Below the pieces are notes generated by a model, which was not told where the DNA came from, made no database searches, and was given only the letters and a program-made list of their open reading frames with translations. A stretch of DNA of 50,164 nucleotides, from positions 1 to 50,164 of the IMG/VR virus record IMGVR_UViG_3300031669_000043; one strand, 5' to 3'. This document shows positions 2,608-31,808 of this stretch, piece after piece; within the stretch, counting starts at the first letter, position 1, and every line of letters starts with the position of its first letter. The position numbers and the translations under genes were made by a program. The DNA is from a virus.

Positions 2608-4142
2608 TCGAGCTTCGGCAATATCAGCAGGACAGCATCGACGCGCTGCGTGAGGGCATACGCGCAGGCCACAAGCGGCAAATCCTCTGTTCTCCGACTG
2701 GCTCGGGGAAAACAGAAATTGCGATGGCGCTCAGCCAGGATGCGTTGAAGAAGGGAAGCAAGACAGCCTTCATCTGTGACAGAATTGCGATTTTGGATCA
2801 GACCTCTCAGCGGTTTGACTCCAATCAAATTCCACACGGAATAATCCAAAGCGGTCACTGGCGCTGGAGACCTTCTGAGCCGGCGCAGATTTGCTCTGCG
2901 CAAACATTAGCCAGGCGTGGCGTAATGGAAGGGCTTAAACTAATCATCGTTGACGAGTGCCATACGCTATACAAGTCCACCGTCAAGTTCATCGAAGCGC
3001 ATCCTGAGATTGTCACCATCGGACTATCGGCCTCGCCGTTTTCGAAAGGACTCGGGGCGCTCTATTCAAACATCGTGAACGTCACGACGACGAATAAGTT
3101 GATCGAGGAAAAATACCTTACCGGACTGCGGGTGTTCGCTGCAAAGGCAATCGACATGCGGGGCGCTAAACTGAAATTCGACGGGGAGTGGATGGACGCG
3201 GAGATTGAAAAACGCGGACTTGAAATCGTTGGCGACATAGTTCAGGAATGGGTCACAAAAACAGGGGAGATATTTGGTGGCCCGGTAAAGACAATTTTAT
3301 TCTCCGCGACCGTCGCGCACGGCGAGGAGCTGTGCAGGCAGTTTCAAGCGGCTGGATTCAATTTCCAGCAGGTAAGCTACAAGGACGGCAACGACGACTC
3401 GCGCAGGGTCTTGATTGAGGAATTCCGTCAGCCGGATTCCGAAATAATGGGGCTGGTATCTGTCGAGGCGCTGGCGAAGGGCTTTGACGTTCCCGACATT
3501 CGGTGTCTCGTCTCAGCGAAGCCCTATCGCAAAATCCTCTCCGGTCACATTCAGCAAATTGGCCGCGGAATGAGGATTTCGCCCGATAAGGAATTTTGCT
3601 TGCTGCTAGATCACTCTGGAAACTTTCTCCGGTTCTACGACGATACGATGAGTTTCTTTGAGCGCGGGCTTGAGGGGCTTGGCGAGGGGCATCTTGATTC
3701 AACCGCAAGACAGGAGCCGGAAGAAAAGCAAGTCCGAGAACTCGTCTGTGGCAATTGTCGCGCAGTTATTCCGCCTGGGTCATCGTCTTGCGCGGTGTGT
3801 GGTTTGGTAAAGCCGAAAAAGCAAAACGATACAGAAAGCCTCCCCGGAGAAATGGTCGAGCTTGAACTGAACTCTAAGGGAAAACCGCTTCCCGATTTTT
3901 TGCAGGACAAGGATCGCGTGTGGCGTCAAATCTGCCAACTGTCTCTTGATCGAAAAAGCGGTGACGAGATTGCGGCGGAACGATTTGCTAAAGCGCAGTA
4001 CATGAATATCTACGGAACATGGCCGCGTCACGCGATGAGAAACATCACGCCGGAAGAACCGAGCTTGCAGCTTCAATCGAAAATCAAGGCGAACCTGATT
4101 CGATATTTCAAGGGTAAGGCGAAACGCGAGGCGCAGGCATGA
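2604..4142 (+). CDS. superfamily 2 DEAD/DEAH-type helicase with zinc ribbon
   Basis: 512 residues. Walker A PTGSGKTE at 31-38, motif II DECH at 117-120, motif III SAS at 142-144, and motif VI QQIGRGMR at 317-324, which together define an SF2 helicase of the UvsW/RecG-like branch. After the helicase core, C382/C385 and C396/C399 form a four-cysteine zinc ribbon. ATP-driven remodelling of branched DNA or replication initiation is the usual role of phage members. The C-terminal ~110 residues are of unknown function. Coupled to both neighbours by four-base overlaps. Confidence 0.9.
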   Translation: MIELRQYQQDSIDALREGIRAGHKRQILCSPTGSGKTEIAMALSQDALKKGSKTAFICDRIAILDQTSQRFDSNQIPHGIIQSGHWRWRPSEPAQICSAQTLARRGVMEGLKLIIVDECHTLYKSTVKFIEAHPEIVTIGLSASPFSKGLGALYSNIVNVTTTNKLIEEKYLTGLRVFAAKAIDMRGAKLKFDGEWMDAEIEKRGLEIVGDIVQEWVTKTGEIFGGPVKTILFSATVAHGEELCRQFQAAGFNFQQVSYKDGNDDSRRVLIEEFRQPDSEIMGLVSVEALAKGFDVPDIRCLVSAKPYRKILSGHIQQIGRGMRISPDKEFCLLLDHSGNFLRFYDDTMSFFERGLEGLGEGHLDSTARQEPEEKQVRELVCGNCRAVIPPGSSSCAVCGLVKPKKQNDTESLPGEMVELELNSKGKPLPDFLQDKDRVWRQICQLSLDRKSGDEIAAERFAKAQYMNIYGTWPRHAMRNITPEEPSLQLQSKIKANLIRYFKGKAKREAQA

Positions 4143-4330
4143 GCCACAAGTTCGCCCTGCACAGTTTCCTAGCCGCTCCATATTACGGCAATTCGGAGTT
4201 TGAGCAACCTGATACCAAACCCGTTCGCGTGGTGCTCTATGAGCCTGTTGCGGCGCTCAGAAAGGAACTGCAGGCGGCGAACAAGCGGATTCAGGAATTG
4301 CAGGGTCCGAGAAAACCGAAGCGGGCTTGA
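4139..4330 (+). CDS. 63-residue protein, unknown
   Basis: Begins MSHKFALHSFLAAPYYGNSE and ends in a short basic coiled coil (KELQAANKRIQELQ). Its ATG overlaps the helicase stop (ATGA). No family recognised. The stop overlaps the -35 box of the next promoter, so this is the last gene of the first rightward transcription unit. Confidence 0.55.
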   Translation: MSHKFALHSFLAAPYYGNSEFEQPDTKPVRVVLYEPVAALRKELQAANKRIQELQGPRKPKRA

Positions 4331-4354
4331 CTTTTCATAATGAAAGCGTATTCT
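4327..4354 (+). promoter_or_regulatory. sigma70-type promoter
   Basis: TTGACT, a 16-base spacer and TATTCT, just at the end of the upstream gene. Predicted start near 4361. It would read into a ~420-base stretch with one weak ORF and then the ParB-like gene. Confidence 0.6.
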
Positions 4355-4375
4355 ACAAACAACAGAGCCCCGAGG

Positions 4376-4762
4376 ATGATTGGTCCCCGAGGCTCTAATC
4401 CTGTGTCGATCGTGACTCGGCCACAGAACAATGTAATCAGTCTAAATTGTTCCGTTCCTGCTGTCAATCCCCCCAGGCGCATAGCGGCGTTACAGCGCGT
4501 TGACGGAGCTACGTTACATCCGGGCATGGCAGGGGGCCTAATATCTGCCGGCGCTACACTGAACCCCGGCGCATTGGGCGGTAGGCTGGTTAACCGCTGC
4601 CCTCGTAAAACCCGCGCCTATGTGCAGAGTGCTTTCGAAAAGAGCATTCTGCGGATGGGCTTGCTGCCTTTCGCGGGACAAACGAACGAGAGTAACCGCC
4701 GGTACGCTGGCAACAGTTCCTGCTTAATTAGCACGAACGGGGTTCGGTATGGGGAGTGGTGA
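4376..4762 (+). CDS. possible 128-residue protein with an internal repeat, unknown
   Basis: This stretch between the promoter at 4327 and the ParB-like gene has one open frame. A point in favour is an internal peptide repeat, GATLHPGMAGGLIS followed directly by a second copy GATLNPGALGGRLV, whose DNA copies differ mostly at third codon positions. Against it, there is no proper Shine-Dalgarno (GAGG touches the ATG) and no recognised domain. The 5' part contains an imperfect hairpin (about 4365-4397) and an inverted repeat GAACAAT/ATTGTTC (4426-4432, 4446-4452). It could instead be a structured leader RNA. Confidence 0.38.
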   Translation: MIGPRGSNPVSIVTRPQNNVISLNCSVPAVNPPRRIAALQRVDGATLHPGMAGGLISAGATLNPGALGGRLVNRCPRKTRAYVQSAFEKSILRMGLLPFAGQTNESNRRYAGNSSCLISTNGVRYGEW

Positions 4763-4785: not shown

Positions 4786-5589
4786 ATGCAACTCGAACTG
4801 ATTAGCGGAAATGTCAAACAAGCGATGGCCGGGGCTTCGTCGAGAGACCTGTGGCAAGTGCCTCTCGATAAACTGAACGTCATCGACGGATTCAACGTGC
4901 GCGTCGATCGCGCGGAGCACAAGGCGCATTTGCAAGGGCTCGTCGACTCGATCATGGCGAACGGCTTTTATCAGAACAAGCCGCTTTCCGGCTACGTCGC
5001 CCTGGAAGATGGCGAACAGGTGATCTACGTCACCGATGGTCATTGCCGCCTAGAAGCCGCTACCGAAGCGGTGCGGCTTGGTGCCGAAATCAAAGCCCTG
5101 CCGGTGGTGGTGAGCCCGAAAGGGACCAGCGTCGAGGATCTGACCGTCGGCCTCGTTACAAACAATTCCGGGCATCCTCTGACGCAGTACGAAATCGGCA
5201 TCGTCTGCAAAAGGCTCATCGGATTCGGATGGAATGAAAAAGAAATCGGGAAACGTCTCGGAATGCCGGCGAGCCGGGTGCGTGACTTGCTCGATTTGGT
5301 TGGCGCTCCCGCGTCGGTGCGCGATGCGGTTGCTGACGGGGCGGTTTCCGCTACCCAAGCGATTGCGACTATTAAAAAGCATGGCGAGAAGGCTGGCGAG
5401 GTATTGCGGGCGGGCGCGGCGAAGGCGAAGGCCAAGGGAAAGAAAAAAATAACACGCCGCCACATAGAGTCTGCGCTTACGCCGAGGGCGGTAATAAAAG
5501 CACTATTGGTTTGGTACGACGCCCCCGCCGGAACGAAAAAGGAACTTGAAAACATCGTCAAATTGGCGAGAGAGTCTATTGCGCGATGA
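4786..5589 (+). CDS. ParB/Spo0J-like nuclease-domain protein
   Basis: 267 residues. A ParB N-terminal domain is shown by DGHCRLEA at 84-91 (the DGHRR-type motif, here with Cys) preceded by the usual PLSGYV strand, followed by a helix-turn-helix region around 145-185 (KEIGKRLGMPASRVRDLL). Such proteins in phages are not always partition factors; several act as regulators or DNA-binding nucleases. The start is set by GGAGG six bases before the ATG; a longer frame upstream lacks this. The C-terminus has a lysine-rich linker. No ParA is visible nearby, so partition is unlikely. Confidence 0.82.
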   Translation: MQLELISGNVKQAMAGASSRDLWQVPLDKLNVIDGFNVRVDRAEHKAHLQGLVDSIMANGFYQNKPLSGYVALEDGEQVIYVTDGHCRLEAATEAVRLGAEIKALPVVVSPKGTSVEDLTVGLVTNNSGHPLTQYEIGIVCKRLIGFGWNEKEIGKRLGMPASRVRDLLDLVGAPASVRDAVADGAVSATQAIATIKKHGEKAGEVLRAGAAKAKAKGKKKITRRHIESALTPRAVIKALLVWYDAPAGTKKELENIVKLARESIAR

Positions 5590-5897
5590 ATCCTTGTAGG
5601 GTATGCGGTAAGCTATTTGACGCATCCTGCTTTTCGTGCAGAGCGAGAATGGGCATGAATGGGGGTGAATTATCCAAAAATTTAGTCGCAAAATTATTTA
5701 AACTGCAAGGCGGTCAATGCGCCTGCGGATGCGGAGGCGATTTAGGGGAGGACTACCATCTGGATCATCGTATGCCGTTGGCGCTTGGTGGTTCCAATAC
5801 TGACGGGAATATGCAGTTGTTGCGGAAACGGTGCAATCTTAGGAAGGGGGCAAAACACCCTATTAAATTCATGCAAGAGAATGGGTTTTTGCTGTGA
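5586..5897 (+). CDS. HNH endonuclease, copy 1 of 3 paralogues
   Basis: 103 residues. An N-terminal zinc knuckle (CRVCG...CFSC) is followed by an HNH domain with YHLDH at 57-61, a GGSNTDGNMQLL strand and HPIKFMQENGFLL at the C-terminus. The closing block is almost the same in the genes at 12501 and 23628. HNH enzymes of this kind are usually freestanding homing endonucleases. One cysteine of the second CxxC pair is arginine here (LRKRCN against LLCPPCN), so the zinc site may be weakened. ATGA overlap with the ParB-like stop. AT-richer than its neighbours. Confidence 0.82.
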   Translation: MNPCRVCGKLFDASCFSCRARMGMNGGELSKNLVAKLFKLQGGQCACGCGGDLGEDYHLDHRMPLALGGSNTDGNMQLLRKRCNLRKGAKHPIKFMQENGFLL

Positions 5898-6055
5898 AAA
5901 ATCCTGAAATCTGGACCGACAGCGACGGCACGAAATACCGCCTCATCAATCCTGAGATCGTGAGCTACGCGCAAAAGCCGGTGAAGATCAAAGGGCGATT
6001 GGTGGAACAGCCCAATGCGGAATTTACCATCGTGACAGCGGAGAAGGTGGAGTGA
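5894..6055 (+). CDS. 53-residue protein, unknown
   Basis: GTG start overlapping the HNH stop (GTGA), reading VKNPEIWTDSDGTKYRLINP and onwards. Its stop overlaps the GTG of the methyltransferase. Soluble, mixed charge, likely a small beta-rich protein. No family recognised. Confidence 0.55.
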   Translation: MKNPEIWTDSDGTKYRLINPEIVSYAQKPVKIKGRLVEQPNAEFTIVTAEKVE

Positions 6056-7755
6056 GCGTGCAGATCATTCGCGGCGACTGCCTCGACGTGCTGAAAACGC
6101 TGCCGGATGCGAGCGTGGATTCCTGCGTAACCGACCCGCCCTATGGCCTAAAATTCATGGGCAAACTGTGGGATCACGGAATCCCTGCAGCGCCGTATTG
6201 GGTCGAGGTGCTGCGTGTCCTGAAACCCGGAGCGCACTTGCTCGCCTTTGGCGGAACGCGCACCTATCACCGCCTAGCCTGCGCGATTGAAGATGCGGGC
6301 TTTGAGATCCGCGATCAAATCGGCTATGCGTTCGGTTCTGGTTTCCCGAAAAGTCATAATCTCGATCGTCATCGGGGTGCGCTGTTTTGTGGATGTGGAG
6401 ACAATCACCATGAGAAGCCTGGGCCTGTCGCTGGAGCAAATGAAACTGCGAAAAAAAGAGCAACACCTGAAAGTAAAGAGGAAGCCAAACACGGAATGCG
6501 ATCACTGTGGGACGAAAATATATCGGCGCCCGAATGTGCTCCGCAAGAACGCGACGAAGTGCTGCAGCCATACCTGTCAGAACCGGCTATTGGGAAATGC
6601 ACACCTGCACACGCCAGCAGTGGTAGCGAAGCGCGCCAAGGCGTTTCTGGGAGACAAGAATCCAGCGTGGAAGGGCGGAGTAATTCAGCGGCATCGGCAC
6701 GGGAACTATGTACAGGTCCGGTATGTGAGAGCGCCAGAATGGGCACGGCTGATGGCGAGGAAGGACGGCTATGTGATGGAGCATCGGCTTGTGATGGCGA
6801 ACCGGATAGGCCGGACTCTGCTGCGCATGGAGGTGGTTCACCACGACGATCATGCGCCGCTGAACAACGCGACGACGAACCTGGAGTTGTGGCCGGACAA
6901 TCGGAGCCACAAACTCTGGGAGCATGGCCGAATTGCGGAAGGTGCGGCCTGCCGATTATTCCATCTGGGCTAGGCACCGCCCTCAAGCCGGCATGGGAGC
7001 CCATCGTTATGGCGCGCAAGCCGCTGGTGGGGACTGTTGCGGCGAACGTCGAGCGATTTGGAACCGGCGGGCTGAATATTGAAGAGTGCAGAGTTGGAAC
7101 TGCAGTCGAGACATGGCCCATTTCGCGCAGCTACGCGCCGGGCCAGATGCAGCCGGGGCATTCAGGTGAAACGCAAGGCACCGGTGATGCGCCCCCCGGC
7201 CGCTGGCCGGCGAACCTGATTCACGACGGCAGCGAGGAAGTGCTGGCATGTTTTCCTGCCAATGCCGGCGCAGCGGCCCCGGTCCACAAGCGCAACGGCG
7301 ACAAGTTCCGCAACACGTTCGGCGCATTCGCTGGAGACGTCGACGAGGCAGGCAGCACATTCCAAGGCGACAGTGGAAGCGCAGCGCGGTTCTTCTACTG
7401 CGCAAAAGCCTCCCGTCAAGACAGAAACGAGGGCCTGCGAGGGCGCGACAAGAAGCTGCTGAATTGGTCTAGCGGCACGCAATCACCCGGCACATTCCAA
7501 GCGCCCGGCACCGACAGAACCAGCGAGAACCATCACCCGACCGTCAAGCCGACCGACCTGATGCGCTACCTGTGCAGGCTGGTGACGCCGAAGGGCGGGA
7601 CGGTGCTTGATCCATTTATGGGCAGCGGCAGCACCGGGCGCGGCGCGATACGCGAGGGCTTCGGCTTCATTGGAATCGAGATCGACGCGGAGTATTGCGA
7701 GATCGCGTGCCTTCGCATTCATGCCGATGCGCCACTGTTTGCCGAGGTCGCATGA
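6052..7755 (+). CDS. site-specific DNA methyltransferase (N6-A/N4-C type) with a ~200-residue insert
   Basis: 567 residues. Motif IV DPPY at 28-31 and the SAM-binding motif DPFMGSGSTG at 520-529, in beta-class order, define a DNA amino-methyltransferase. The segment GLGTALKPAWEPIVMARKP is typical of phage members. Between about residues 105 and 305 there is a low-complexity insert rich in R, E, S, A and G that does not look like a folded domain. It coincides with a complete HNH gene in the +1 frame. The methyltransferase frame stays open through the whole insert, so a single full-length protein can be made. Probable role: protecting phage DNA from restriction. Confidence 0.85.
   Translation: MSVQIIRGDCLDVLKTLPDASVDSCVTDPPYGLKFMGKLWDHGIPAAPYWVEVLRVLKPGAHLLAFGGTRTYHRLACAIEDAGFEIRDQIGYAFGSGFPKSHNLDRHRGALFCGCGDNHHEKPGPVAGANETAKKRATPESKEEAKHGMRSLWDENISAPECAPQERDEVLQPYLSEPAIGKCTPAHASSGSEARQGVSGRQESSVEGRSNSAASARELCTGPVCESARMGTADGEEGRLCDGASACDGEPDRPDSAAHGGGSPRRSCAAEQRDDEPGVVAGQSEPQTLGAWPNCGRCGLPIIPSGLGTALKPAWEPIVMARKPLVGTVAANVERFGTGGLNIEECRVGTAVETWPISRSYAPGQMQPGHSGETQGTGDAPPGRWPANLIHDGSEEVLACFPANAGAAAPVHKRNGDKFRNTFGAFAGDVDEAGSTFQGDSGSAARFFYCAKASRQDRNEGLRGRDKKLLNWSSGTQSPGTFQAPGTDRTSENHHPTVKPTDLMRYLCRLVTPKGGTVLDPFMGSGSTGRGAIREGFGFIGIEIDAEYCEIACLRIHADAPLFAEVA
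6410..6973 (+). CDS. HNH endonuclease nested in the methyltransferase gene
   Basis: 187 residues in the +1 frame inside the methyltransferase. It has its own ribosome-binding site (GGAG nine bases before the ATG). Features: a zinc finger C-x2-C...C-x3-C (CDHCG near 30, CCSHTC near 51), the NPAWKGG motif common in phage HNH proteins, YVMEHRLVM, and the HNH core VVHHDDHAPLNNATTNLEL...H. Its TAG stop falls in the codons that give GLGTAL in the methyltransferase, where related enzymes usually have GWGTAL. It probably acts as a homing endonuclease that carries the surrounding DNA into phages lacking it. Confidence 0.8.
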   Translation: MRSLGLSLEQMKLRKKEQHLKVKRKPNTECDHCGTKIYRRPNVLRKNATKCCSHTCQNRLLGNAHLHTPAVVAKRAKAFLGDKNPAWKGGVIQRHRHGNYVQVRYVRAPEWARLMARKDGYVMEHRLVMANRIGRTLLRMEVVHHDDHAPLNNATTNLELWPDNRSHKLWEHGRIAEGAACRLFHLG

Positions 7756-8222: not shown

Positions 8223-8653
8223 AGGGCGGTCTGCATTGGGACGAACAGCGCCTTCTGGAATTCCAGAAGCGCATAGGCGCGAGTAAGGGGCGCGTCGTTC
8301 ATCTGCTGGATAAGCCGAAGCCGAACAAGCACAAAGCGATTCCGCGGGTCGTAGATGGCGTGAAGTTCGCCAGCGGTCTTGAGGCGCAGTTATGGGTCGA
8401 TTATCGTCTGCTGGAAAAGGCGGGGCAGATCAGGAATCTCAGGCGGCAGGTACGATTCAGCCTGTTTGCCAACGGGGGCGAGCACATCGGGACGTACAAG
8501 GCGGATATGGTGTTCGAGGAATTGCGGGAAGGGGTCTGGAAGCGCGTCGTGAGCGATGTGAAGTCCGAACATACCCGGAACCTTCCTGCGTGGGCCAGGA
8601 CGAAGAAATTGATGCTTGCCTGCCACAATATCAGCGTGAGGGAGTTGCCGTGA
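8219..8653 (+). CDS. DUF1064-family PD-(D/E)XK-like nuclease
   Basis: 144 residues. The core reads FASGLEAQLW, then a strand with YKADMVFEE, then VSDVKSEHT, giving the E...D...(D)xK arrangement of a restriction-endonuclease-like fold. That layout fits DUF1064, a phage family of predicted endonucleases. The GASKGRVVHLLDK segment near the N-terminus is basic. Coupled to both neighbours by four-base overlaps. Confidence 0.7.
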   Translation: MKGGLHWDEQRLLEFQKRIGASKGRVVHLLDKPKPNKHKAIPRVVDGVKFASGLEAQLWVDYRLLEKAGQIRNLRRQVRFSLFANGGEHIGTYKADMVFEELREGVWKRVVSDVKSEHTRNLPAWARTKKLMLACHNISVRELP

Positions 8654-8916
8654 CTGAATCCGAATATCTCCTTCGCGTGAAGAACTGCCGCTGCGTTATC
8701 TGCTGGTACAAACTCGGGGTGAAAACTTCGCCGTGTGACGCGCATCATGTCGGGACCGGAAACGAGCATAACGATTTCGCCACGGTTGCTCTATGCAAAG
8801 AGCATCACCAAGGCGCGACCGGGGTGCATGGGAAGCATCGCAAGGCGTTTCATTTGCTGTGGAACACCAGCGATATTTTACTGTTGGCGTGGACTGTGAA
8901 GGAGGTCATGCGATGA
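8650..8916 (+). CDS. small HNH/Ref-like zinc nuclease
   Basis: 88 residues, GTG start overlapping the previous stop. Contains C-x2-C (CRCVIC), PCDAHHVG, LCKEHHQG and GVHGKH, the Cys/His pattern of the recombination-enhancing nuclease (Ref)/HNH-like family seen in phages. These act in DNA recombination or processing together with nearby annealing proteins. Coupled to the next gene by ATGA. Confidence 0.7.
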   Translation: MTESEYLLRVKNCRCVICWYKLGVKTSPCDAHHVGTGNEHNDFATVALCKEHHQGATGVHGKHRKAFHLLWNTSDILLLAWTVKEVMR

Positions 8917-30666: not shown

Positions 30667-31794
30667 ATGATGTTAGGCGGAAGCGGAATCGGCCTCGGTC
30701 TGAGGGGGAAAGTAACCAACGCACTGACGTTGCCGGCGGGGGAGACTTACATCGTCCCTGCGGGGAACTACGCCGTCAATCTTGGTCCATACACTGAGCT
30801 TCAATATCTCGATCCTGTTACCGGGATTTGGAGAACTCAGTTATGGCCGGGGCAAGACGGGCAATTCGCAATCGACGGCGCGAACTACCGCCTTGCCAAT
30901 CTCACCGGCTGCCCCGTAGCCGCTGTCATCACGACCGCGCTTGCGACTGGCGCAGCGACCGGCATCGGCGTAACTGCAACGCTCATGACCGTCACGGCTT
31001 CGTCCGGTTCTTCGACCTGGTGCCCGATTGTCGGCGGTGCGCTTTCGCTGACCTGCGTTACCGGCGTCACCGGATCGAGCGTCGGTGCTGGCTATCTTTT
31101 CCCGCCAACAGCGATCATTTCGGCGCCGCCTCCCGGCGGTCTTCAGGCGACGGCTCACGTTACCGGAATTCCGACGACCGGCGCGTTGCTTGCCGCTCAA
31201 GTCATCATCGACAACCAGGGCGCGGGTTATCCTGTAGCCTCGACCGGGATTTCGACGGCGACCATCACCTTCGTCAACGACCCTCGGGACACCGCAGGCA
31301 GCGGCGCCACTGTTCGCCTTGGCGCGACCGGAACCGGGCAGTTGACGGCTCTGTATCCGCTGACCCAAGGCGTTCCGCTGACGGGGGCTCCGACGCTGGC
31401 GTTCGGCGTGGGCGCGGCTGGCGCTACGTCGATCATGAACTTCACCGTGACTGCGATTGCCTCTGGCACGACGAACACGCAGACCTACGCCACGGGCACA
31501 ACCCCAATCGTTACCACCATCGGGAACATCGTTTCGGCTACACCTGCCTGGACGAATCCGATTCACGAAAAAGCCTCCACCTTCCCGCGGCCGGCGCGGA
31601 TTCAGGCGGGTCTGGCTTCGAACGTCGTTACCTCAACGGGCGCCGTTGTCGAAGATGGCGGGTTCGGGATTCAACAAGCCCCGAGCGCGATTGTCATTGG
31701 GCAACTGCTGGCGATTACCGGCGTGACGCTGGGGACCGCTCCGCTGCTTACGATTGGCGGCGTGACGGACACAAGTTGGCTGCAGCCGATCTAA
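30667..31794 (+). CDS. 375-residue Gly/Thr/Ala-rich virion protein (decoration or head fibre candidate)
   Basis: N-terminal part: LTLPAGETYIVPAGNYAVNL and ELQYLDPVTGIWRTQLWPG. The remainder is low-charge beta-rich sequence with several AGYPV/GAGY-like turns, similar in style to the insert in the gene at 32668 (GNYAGTPTVVITGPGSGA). It follows the major capsid gene with a good AAGGAG, so a capsid decoration, vertex or head-fibre protein is likely. Surface exposure also makes it a possible glycosylation substrate for the next gene. Confidence 0.6.
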   Translation: MMLGGSGIGLGLRGKVTNALTLPAGETYIVPAGNYAVNLGPYTELQYLDPVTGIWRTQLWPGQDGQFAIDGANYRLANLTGCPVAAVITTALATGAATGIGVTATLMTVTASSGSSTWCPIVGGALSLTCVTGVTGSSVGAGYLFPPTAIISAPPPGGLQATAHVTGIPTTGALLAAQVIIDNQGAGYPVASTGISTATITFVNDPRDTAGSGATVRLGATGTGQLTALYPLTQGVPLTGAPTLAFGVGAAGATSIMNFTVTAIASGTTNTQTYATGTTPIVTTIGNIVSATPAWTNPIHEKASTFPRPARIQAGLASNVVTSTGAVVEDGGFGIQQAPSAIVIGQLLAITGVTLGTAPLLTIGGVTDTSWLQPI

Positions 31795-31808
31795 CCTCAT
31801 GAGGCTTC

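Follow-up and report, generated by a model that had tools for sequence, protein, structure and literature searches.

Genes for HNH endonucleases hidden out of frame within methylase genes have been described in mycobacteriophages, where the unit is termed the ShiLan domain (Arsenault, Gosselin and Gogarten, 2025, PMC11855218; earlier, Gosselin et al., 2023, PMC9957025). A further hidden-HNH case is also on record (PMC12613952). The ShiLan-domain papers provide computational evidence for mobility; no ribosome-binding site was found and no two-frame selection test is included (PMC11855218).

The locus described here is found in an IMG/VR virus record of 50,164 bases, the whole of which is referred to as the window. 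As in the ShiLan domain, an HNH gene lies out of frame in an open phage DNA methylase (methyltransferase, MTase) of the same family; intron and intein features are absent, the distribution is patchy and the length is ∼200 codons. Site and frame are not shared. In ShiLan and in Mantra the HNH is found further downstream, close to ARKP/FEPIVVARKP, and in frame +2; that of the window is in frame +1 between GFPKSHNL and GWGTALKP. The ShiLan and Mantra nucleases are ∼28–32% identical to the window nuclease, and the window, unlike ShiLan, displays a CxC...CxxC motif and a Shine-Dalgarno-like (SD-like) site. The window element resembles the ShiLan domain in the way it works but represents a variant of its own.

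In the mycobacteriophages Molly, Lamina13, StellaBean and Optimus, the HNH occupies the same MTase site as in the window and is likewise in frame +1. Similar CxC...CxxC flanks are present and GTALKP is preceded by Leu in place of the Trp of insert-less MTases, but the nuclease belongs to an unrelated HNH family (PF01844, 7e-10). Applejack is annotated as Molly type (PMC12613952).

Relatives of the window gene nested in MTases are of two kinds: class I, without an intein, as in the window, and class II, where the MTase frame around the HNH gene is itself an intein. The known mycobacteriophage methylase intein (e.g., in ShiLan gp65) has the insertion point of class II (YG/C...GN/SGFPKS, slashes marking the junctions) and a related splicing domain. 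It carries an in-frame LAGLIDADG-type nuclease, whereas class II has an out-of-frame HNH and the window no intein. Phage group I intron nucleases of the I-HmuI type resemble the present family in the HNH_3-like catalytic region (8e-7, above cut-off, in the class II locus L074), but no intron is detected in the nested loci and the host frame appears to be read through. New here are the two-frame selection test, an HNH stop codon TAG that dictates Leu or Ile within GWGTAL, a range of hosts that extends far outside the mycobacteriophages, and class II (48 loci), with the HNH out of frame in an intein.

The nested locus

Features of the locus are listed in Table 1. The MTase matches N6_N4_Mtase in Pfam (3.3e-26) and phrog_67 in PHROGs (4e-72), and its AF2 model matches CcrM, M.BceJIV and M.MboIIA; with TDPPYG preceding DPFMGSG in the translation, motif order, Pfam match and fold all place it in the beta class. 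A megablast search of the window gene against named phages gave no match. Relatives without the insert read GSGFPKSHNL...GWGTALKP in the same region. In the model, residues 120–289 have pLDDT < 50 and are predicted to be disordered, while the conserved core is mostly > 90; the alignments used for AF2 modelling are shallow (35 and 27 rows). The insert shows no splicing motifs in translation and is modelled as disordered; there is no case for an intein in the window. The CxC and CxxC pairs at the two ends of the insert, a pattern matched in 53 nested loci, suggest a zinc clamp at the base of a loop, a proposal drawn from the cysteines alone.

Table 1. Features of the nested MTase/HNH locus (window positions)
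Feature	Position	Strand	Details
DNA MTase gene (host frame), beta-class N6/N4	6052–7755	+	567 codons, GTG start, open
Insert in MTase frame	6364–6966	+	201 codons, ∼residues 105–305; from comparison with L008, L009 and L014
CxC (C113, C115), first half of putative zinc clamp, MTase frame	6388–6396	+	5′ of HNH start; from sequence
GGAG, possible HNH ribosome-binding site	6397–6400	+	9 nt 5′ of ATG; from sequence
Antisense ORF	6405–7121	-	238 aa, open; rarely open in relatives
HNH endonuclease gene	6410–6973	+	187 aa, ATG start, TAG stop; frame +1 within MTase ORF
Zinc-finger-like CxxC...CSxxC region of HNH protein	6497–6577	+	C30, C33 and C56 nearly invariant
HNH catalytic region, VMEHRL...VVHHDDH...NN...N...HK	6779–6925	+	from comparison of 27 homologues
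CxxC (C295, C298) in WPNCGRCGLP, putative second half of clamp, MTase frame	6934–6945	+	overlaps HNH C-terminus
CTAG, Leu codon of GLGTAL plus next base	6970–6973	+	holds HNH stop TAG (6971–6973)

The nested protein matches several HNH families in PHROGs (best, HNH endonuclease, 8e-16), but Pfam HNH_3 only weakly and below the cut-off (E 0.008); a PDB sequence search with the HNH profile gave no matches. Residues H144, H145, N153, N157 and H167 are invariant among 27 homologues, as expected of a catalytic site. An earlier note on this DNA had described an MTase frame open across a whole HNH gene that lies in the +1 frame with its own GGAG site and TAG stop, and every one of these elements is found as claimed. 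It had also placed the HNH stop within the codons for GLGTAL, where relatives have GWGTAL. The TAG is indeed read as cTA/G across the L and G codons, and insert-less MTases have W at this position in 16 of 18 cases; class II MTases have W, Y or F in 30 of 30. Twelve class I loci have the stop as NTA/G, which forces Leu or Ile in the motif, and in many other loci the stop is 12 bases downstream, inside conserved Leu-Lys codons. The antisense frame that the note reported as open is so in the window, but this does not extend to relatives, since antisense frames are open in only 4/40, 0/40 and 4/40 class I loci; the antisense ORF is judged to be a by-product of composition.

Other features of the window and of the MTase loop are as follows. 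The MTase region is directly preceded by a small HNH gene (5586–5897; PF01844, 9.6e-7), and 3′ of it an ORF (8392–8916) contains the HNH-like motif CVICW...HHVGTG; there are perhaps three HNH genes within 3.4 kb. Overlapping ORFs on the same strand (30667–31794 and 30828–31802; 375 and 324 aa; frame +2) are found just after the major head protein, and neither has a PHROGs match. Other phages (L011, at 3001–4548, L021, L024 and L036) carry longer in-frame sequences in the MTase loop between GFPKS and GWGTAL, that of L011 being HTH-like by eye; the loop is possibly a general insertion hot spot.

Selection on both reading frames

Relatives were gathered from viral contigs and from prokaryotes, each species of which was represented by a single genome, on the basis of similarity to the HNH. 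The set comprises 138 homologue-bearing loci, the window and records of named phages among them. Loci were each found via a few short peptide patterns, and therefore their frequencies are not population estimates; class labels also rest on pattern matching. In-frame MTase halves flank the HNH gene in 117 of the 138 loci, with the HNH in frame +1 in 116 and in frame +2 in one (Mantra). No MTase-frame stop is found across the HNH gene in any of the 117; a single locus among the 116 is interrupted by a stop in another part of the MTase interval. The 116 loci were chosen without a condition on openness, and near-copies are included.

In the +1 arrangement, an HNH codon followed by AA, AG or GA is a danger position, where an ending in T creates a host stop. 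Danger codons end in T in 0/5,474 cases, compared with 3,211/14,321 (22%) elsewhere in the same genes. The window alone has 0/49 against 25/137 (Fisher p = 2.5e-4). Among 74 relatives non-redundant at 90% identity, picked only by the HNH frame relative to the upstream MTase half, none of 12,177 MTase-frame codons is a stop, compared with 1.6–6% of codons in the other non-HNH frames. Synonymous resampling of the HNH proteins predicts 546–811 stops. It was used in place of dN/dS because third positions are probably saturated at these divergences. MTase motifs are largely kept in the nested frames by strict patterns (DPPY in 112/126, DPFxGSG in 93/126), and several of the misses are on truncated contigs or in separate downstream ORFs. 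The sequences thus show selection for openness of both frames, in the window as well as in the other 115 loci; the open MTase frame is not due to chance. The earlier proposal of a recurring dual-coding module is borne out and also has a precedent (PMC11855218). None of the host-frame stops is unavoidable in +1, compared with a mean of 0.8 per HNH protein in +2; as every +1 stop can be removed by a synonymous HNH change, the +1 frame may be favoured.

Homologues not nested in this manner provide natural controls. They show 2–36 stops in the equivalent frame and T at 164/600 danger codons (27%), against 25% elsewhere; where the host-frame demand is absent, stops are present. The HNH gene of L164 is free, although 74% identical to a nested query; it shows 23 stops compared with 0 in nested L060 (p = 1e-7). 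In L050 (2155–3664) and L154 (1124–2704), the MTase is divided into two ORFs that flank the HNH, and the equivalent frame has 20 and 36 stops, respectively. These three HNHs sit inside a clade of otherwise nested HNHs with a support of 98 in the HNH tree. The earlier note had named an MTase frame interrupted at the HNH as a refuting case. Such interruption does occur in L050 and L154, but the nested form is left unrefuted because the MTase there has become two ORFs flanking the HNH.

In both L050 and L154 the 3′ end of the HNH is overlapped by the ORF for the C-part of the MTase. In L077 (2893–3949) the HNH and an N-terminal fragment of the MTase are on opposite strands, the ORF of the fragment overlapping the end of the HNH ORF, and matches to the MTase C-part are found further along the minus strand.

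The intein-borne form and initiation of the HNH gene

The class II insertion point is ∼10 codons upstream of the class I site. Hallmarks of an intein are present (e.g., in L074), namely an invariant Cys1, a TxxH block and a C-terminal GN/S. A profile search of PDB finds the AceL intein structure (1e-6), and the AF2 model has pLDDT > 90 at both ends with disorder between; by Foldseek it matches solved inteins (best E 5e-5). Introns were at first suspected in this long class (L067–L118), but translation showed inteins. Among named phage records class II is found only in L007, a 484-kb metagenomic phage.

The HNH frame is not open over the whole class II intein. Columns 1–48 have 64 stops (51 expected), but the frame is stop-free from about column 51, with 0 observed and 42 expected over columns 51–100 in 27/27 loci. 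As columns 51–100 encode the splicing domain, including the block-B histidine, two functional sequences overlap there. The evidence leans towards a Hint domain in the MTase frame with the HNH in +1, its stop-free frame starting inside the splicing domain, and with the same nuclease lineage also found nested without an intein (as in the window), between split MTase halves and free. This would represent an intein architecture absent from the literature consulted and a general way to inhabit a host gene without breaking it; overlap with a preprint on actinobacteriophage inteins of 'non-canonical architecture' (10.1101/2025.01.02.630785) is not ruled out.

The stop pattern also bears on how the HNH protein might be made. 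Instead of internal initiation, programmed +1 frameshifting from the MTase N-terminus could produce an MTase–HNH fusion. The HNH frame is open for 132 nt 5′ of its ATG in the window, and no ATG, GTG or TTG is found 5′ of the core in L051, its near-copy L052 and one contig-edge locus. SD-like motifs, moreover, are not universal: an SD-like candidate start is present in only 48/126 nested loci, and a universal Shine-Dalgarno sequence for the HNH is not supported. Such a fusion is nevertheless unlikely. A start codon lies 5′ of the core in 123/126 nested loci, and in class II the +1 frame is stopped over intein columns 1–48 and becomes stop-free only from about column 51, with ATG commonest at column 49 (13/27 loci). 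Among candidate ATGs upstream of nested HNH genes, 13% have an SD-like motif compared with 6% of control ATGs, which provides weak general support for an HNH ribosome-binding site.

Conservation of the loop and distribution of the element

Identity of the MTase frame within the overlap is 0.300 in class I, with 0.274 forced by the HNH protein. Selection on this frame thus appears to be mainly for openness, with amino acids conserved barely beyond what the HNH imposes; strong amino-acid selection is supported only at the insert end and not across the whole MTase-frame insert. There, in W-P-x-C-x-x-C-G-x-P, the residues W, P, C, C, G and P are conserved with z ∼6–11 beyond the HNH constraint. 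Since residues of the insert are otherwise mostly unconserved beyond this constraint, the loop has no evident function.

The HNH and MTase trees are quick trees with many weak branches. On the HNH tree, classes I and II interleave with at least 6 changes, and L068 (class II) sits inside a class I clade with a support of 100, although class II as a whole is clustered (9 changes vs 36 when shuffled). On the MTase tree, element type is only slightly clustered (24–28 changes vs 31–34 shuffled). The MTases of L056 (class I) and L068 are 41% identical, their HNHs 75%, and of 3,051 pairs compared, 80% are more alike in the HNH than in the MTase (R2 of the two identities, 0.05). Within the sequences compared, the element is patchily distributed over MTases and its divergence is nearly independent of that of the host gene. 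This disjunct pattern fits homing, although cleavage and homing are inferred. Bacterial genomes with the element include Cupriavidus necator (L119), Antribacter gilvus (L128) and metagenome-assembled genomes (MAGs) of several phyla.

These observations can be set against the possibility that the MTase has domesticated the insert, e.g., as a target-recognition or anti-restriction loop, and that the HNH is no longer mobile. A homing cycle is expected to leave decayed HNH frames inside open MTase inserts, yet none was found in one search for MTase-frame inserts by their own sequence; all had an open HNH frame, including that of L194, the only new contig recovered. Domestication is still quite unlikely, given a loop whose middle is unconserved beyond the null and disordered in the model, and given the patchy distribution and near-independent divergence described above.

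The nested HNH of L194 (2199–2507) has VVNH instead of VVHH at the catalytic site with both frames open, and is possibly an inactive copy. In L130 (293–2461) the host gene of a related +1 HNH belongs to another family of DNA MTases, and cysteine motifs flank the HNH here as well. This and the unrelated HNH of the Molly type at the site used in the window point to a probable repeated origin or re-use of the arrangement.

Splicing and composition

HNH nucleases are frequent in phage group I introns (PMC11855218 and references therein), and the insert might likewise be an RNA intron, of group I or another type, that carries the HNH ORF and is spliced from the MTase mRNA, its open host frame being incidental. 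This is very unlikely. No group I or II match was obtained with Rfam, either in a permissive search of the window region or at gathering thresholds on 40 loci. A spliced insert would have no reason to avoid host-frame stops, yet none is present in 116 loci; MTase-frame residues at the insert end are conserved beyond the HNH constraint; and class II loci have a protein-splicing intein in this region. Intron splicing is unsupported by Rfam but not excluded by experiment.

That the open host frame is merely a by-product of GC-rich composition in a dead MTase is scarcely tenable. The open antisense frame of the window would fit this view, but AT-rich nested loci (37–46% GC) have 0 stops where close non-nested relatives have 20–36, other frames are stopped, resampling predicts hundreds of stops, and the MTase motifs are kept.

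Proposed mechanism and significance

The preferred and probable reading is that of a mobile HNH homing-endonuclease gene in a variable loop of the MTase, placed in frame +1 with the host frame kept open. Its insertion would be tolerated because read-through of the host frame gives no more than a disordered loop, although the evidence for translation, cleavage and homing is by inference. The MTase would be translated straight through the insert, whose long disordered loop may be pinned at its ends by the CxC...CxxC zinc clamp. Internal initiation (GGAG-9-ATG in the window) would yield the HNH protein, which would end at a stop supplied by host codons, either NTA/G or a +1 stop inside the conserved Leu-Lys codons. 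The nuclease is envisaged to cut insert-less MTase alleles near GFPKS/GWGTALKP, after which recombinational repair would copy the element in. In frame +1, synonymous HNH changes could remove every host-frame stop.

In the usual view, a homing endonuclease can leave its host gene unharmed only from within a self-splicing intron or intein or from an intergenic position. The present nuclease family appears to take another route, a codon choice that keeps the host frame open. Gene callers can overlook a nested HNH when the longer gene around it has been annotated, as has happened in the ShiLan, Mantra and Bipolar records. The class II inteins may represent a new architecture. As nested, intein-borne, split and free forms are all found in one tree, the keeping and loss of overlapping genes become directly testable in this family.
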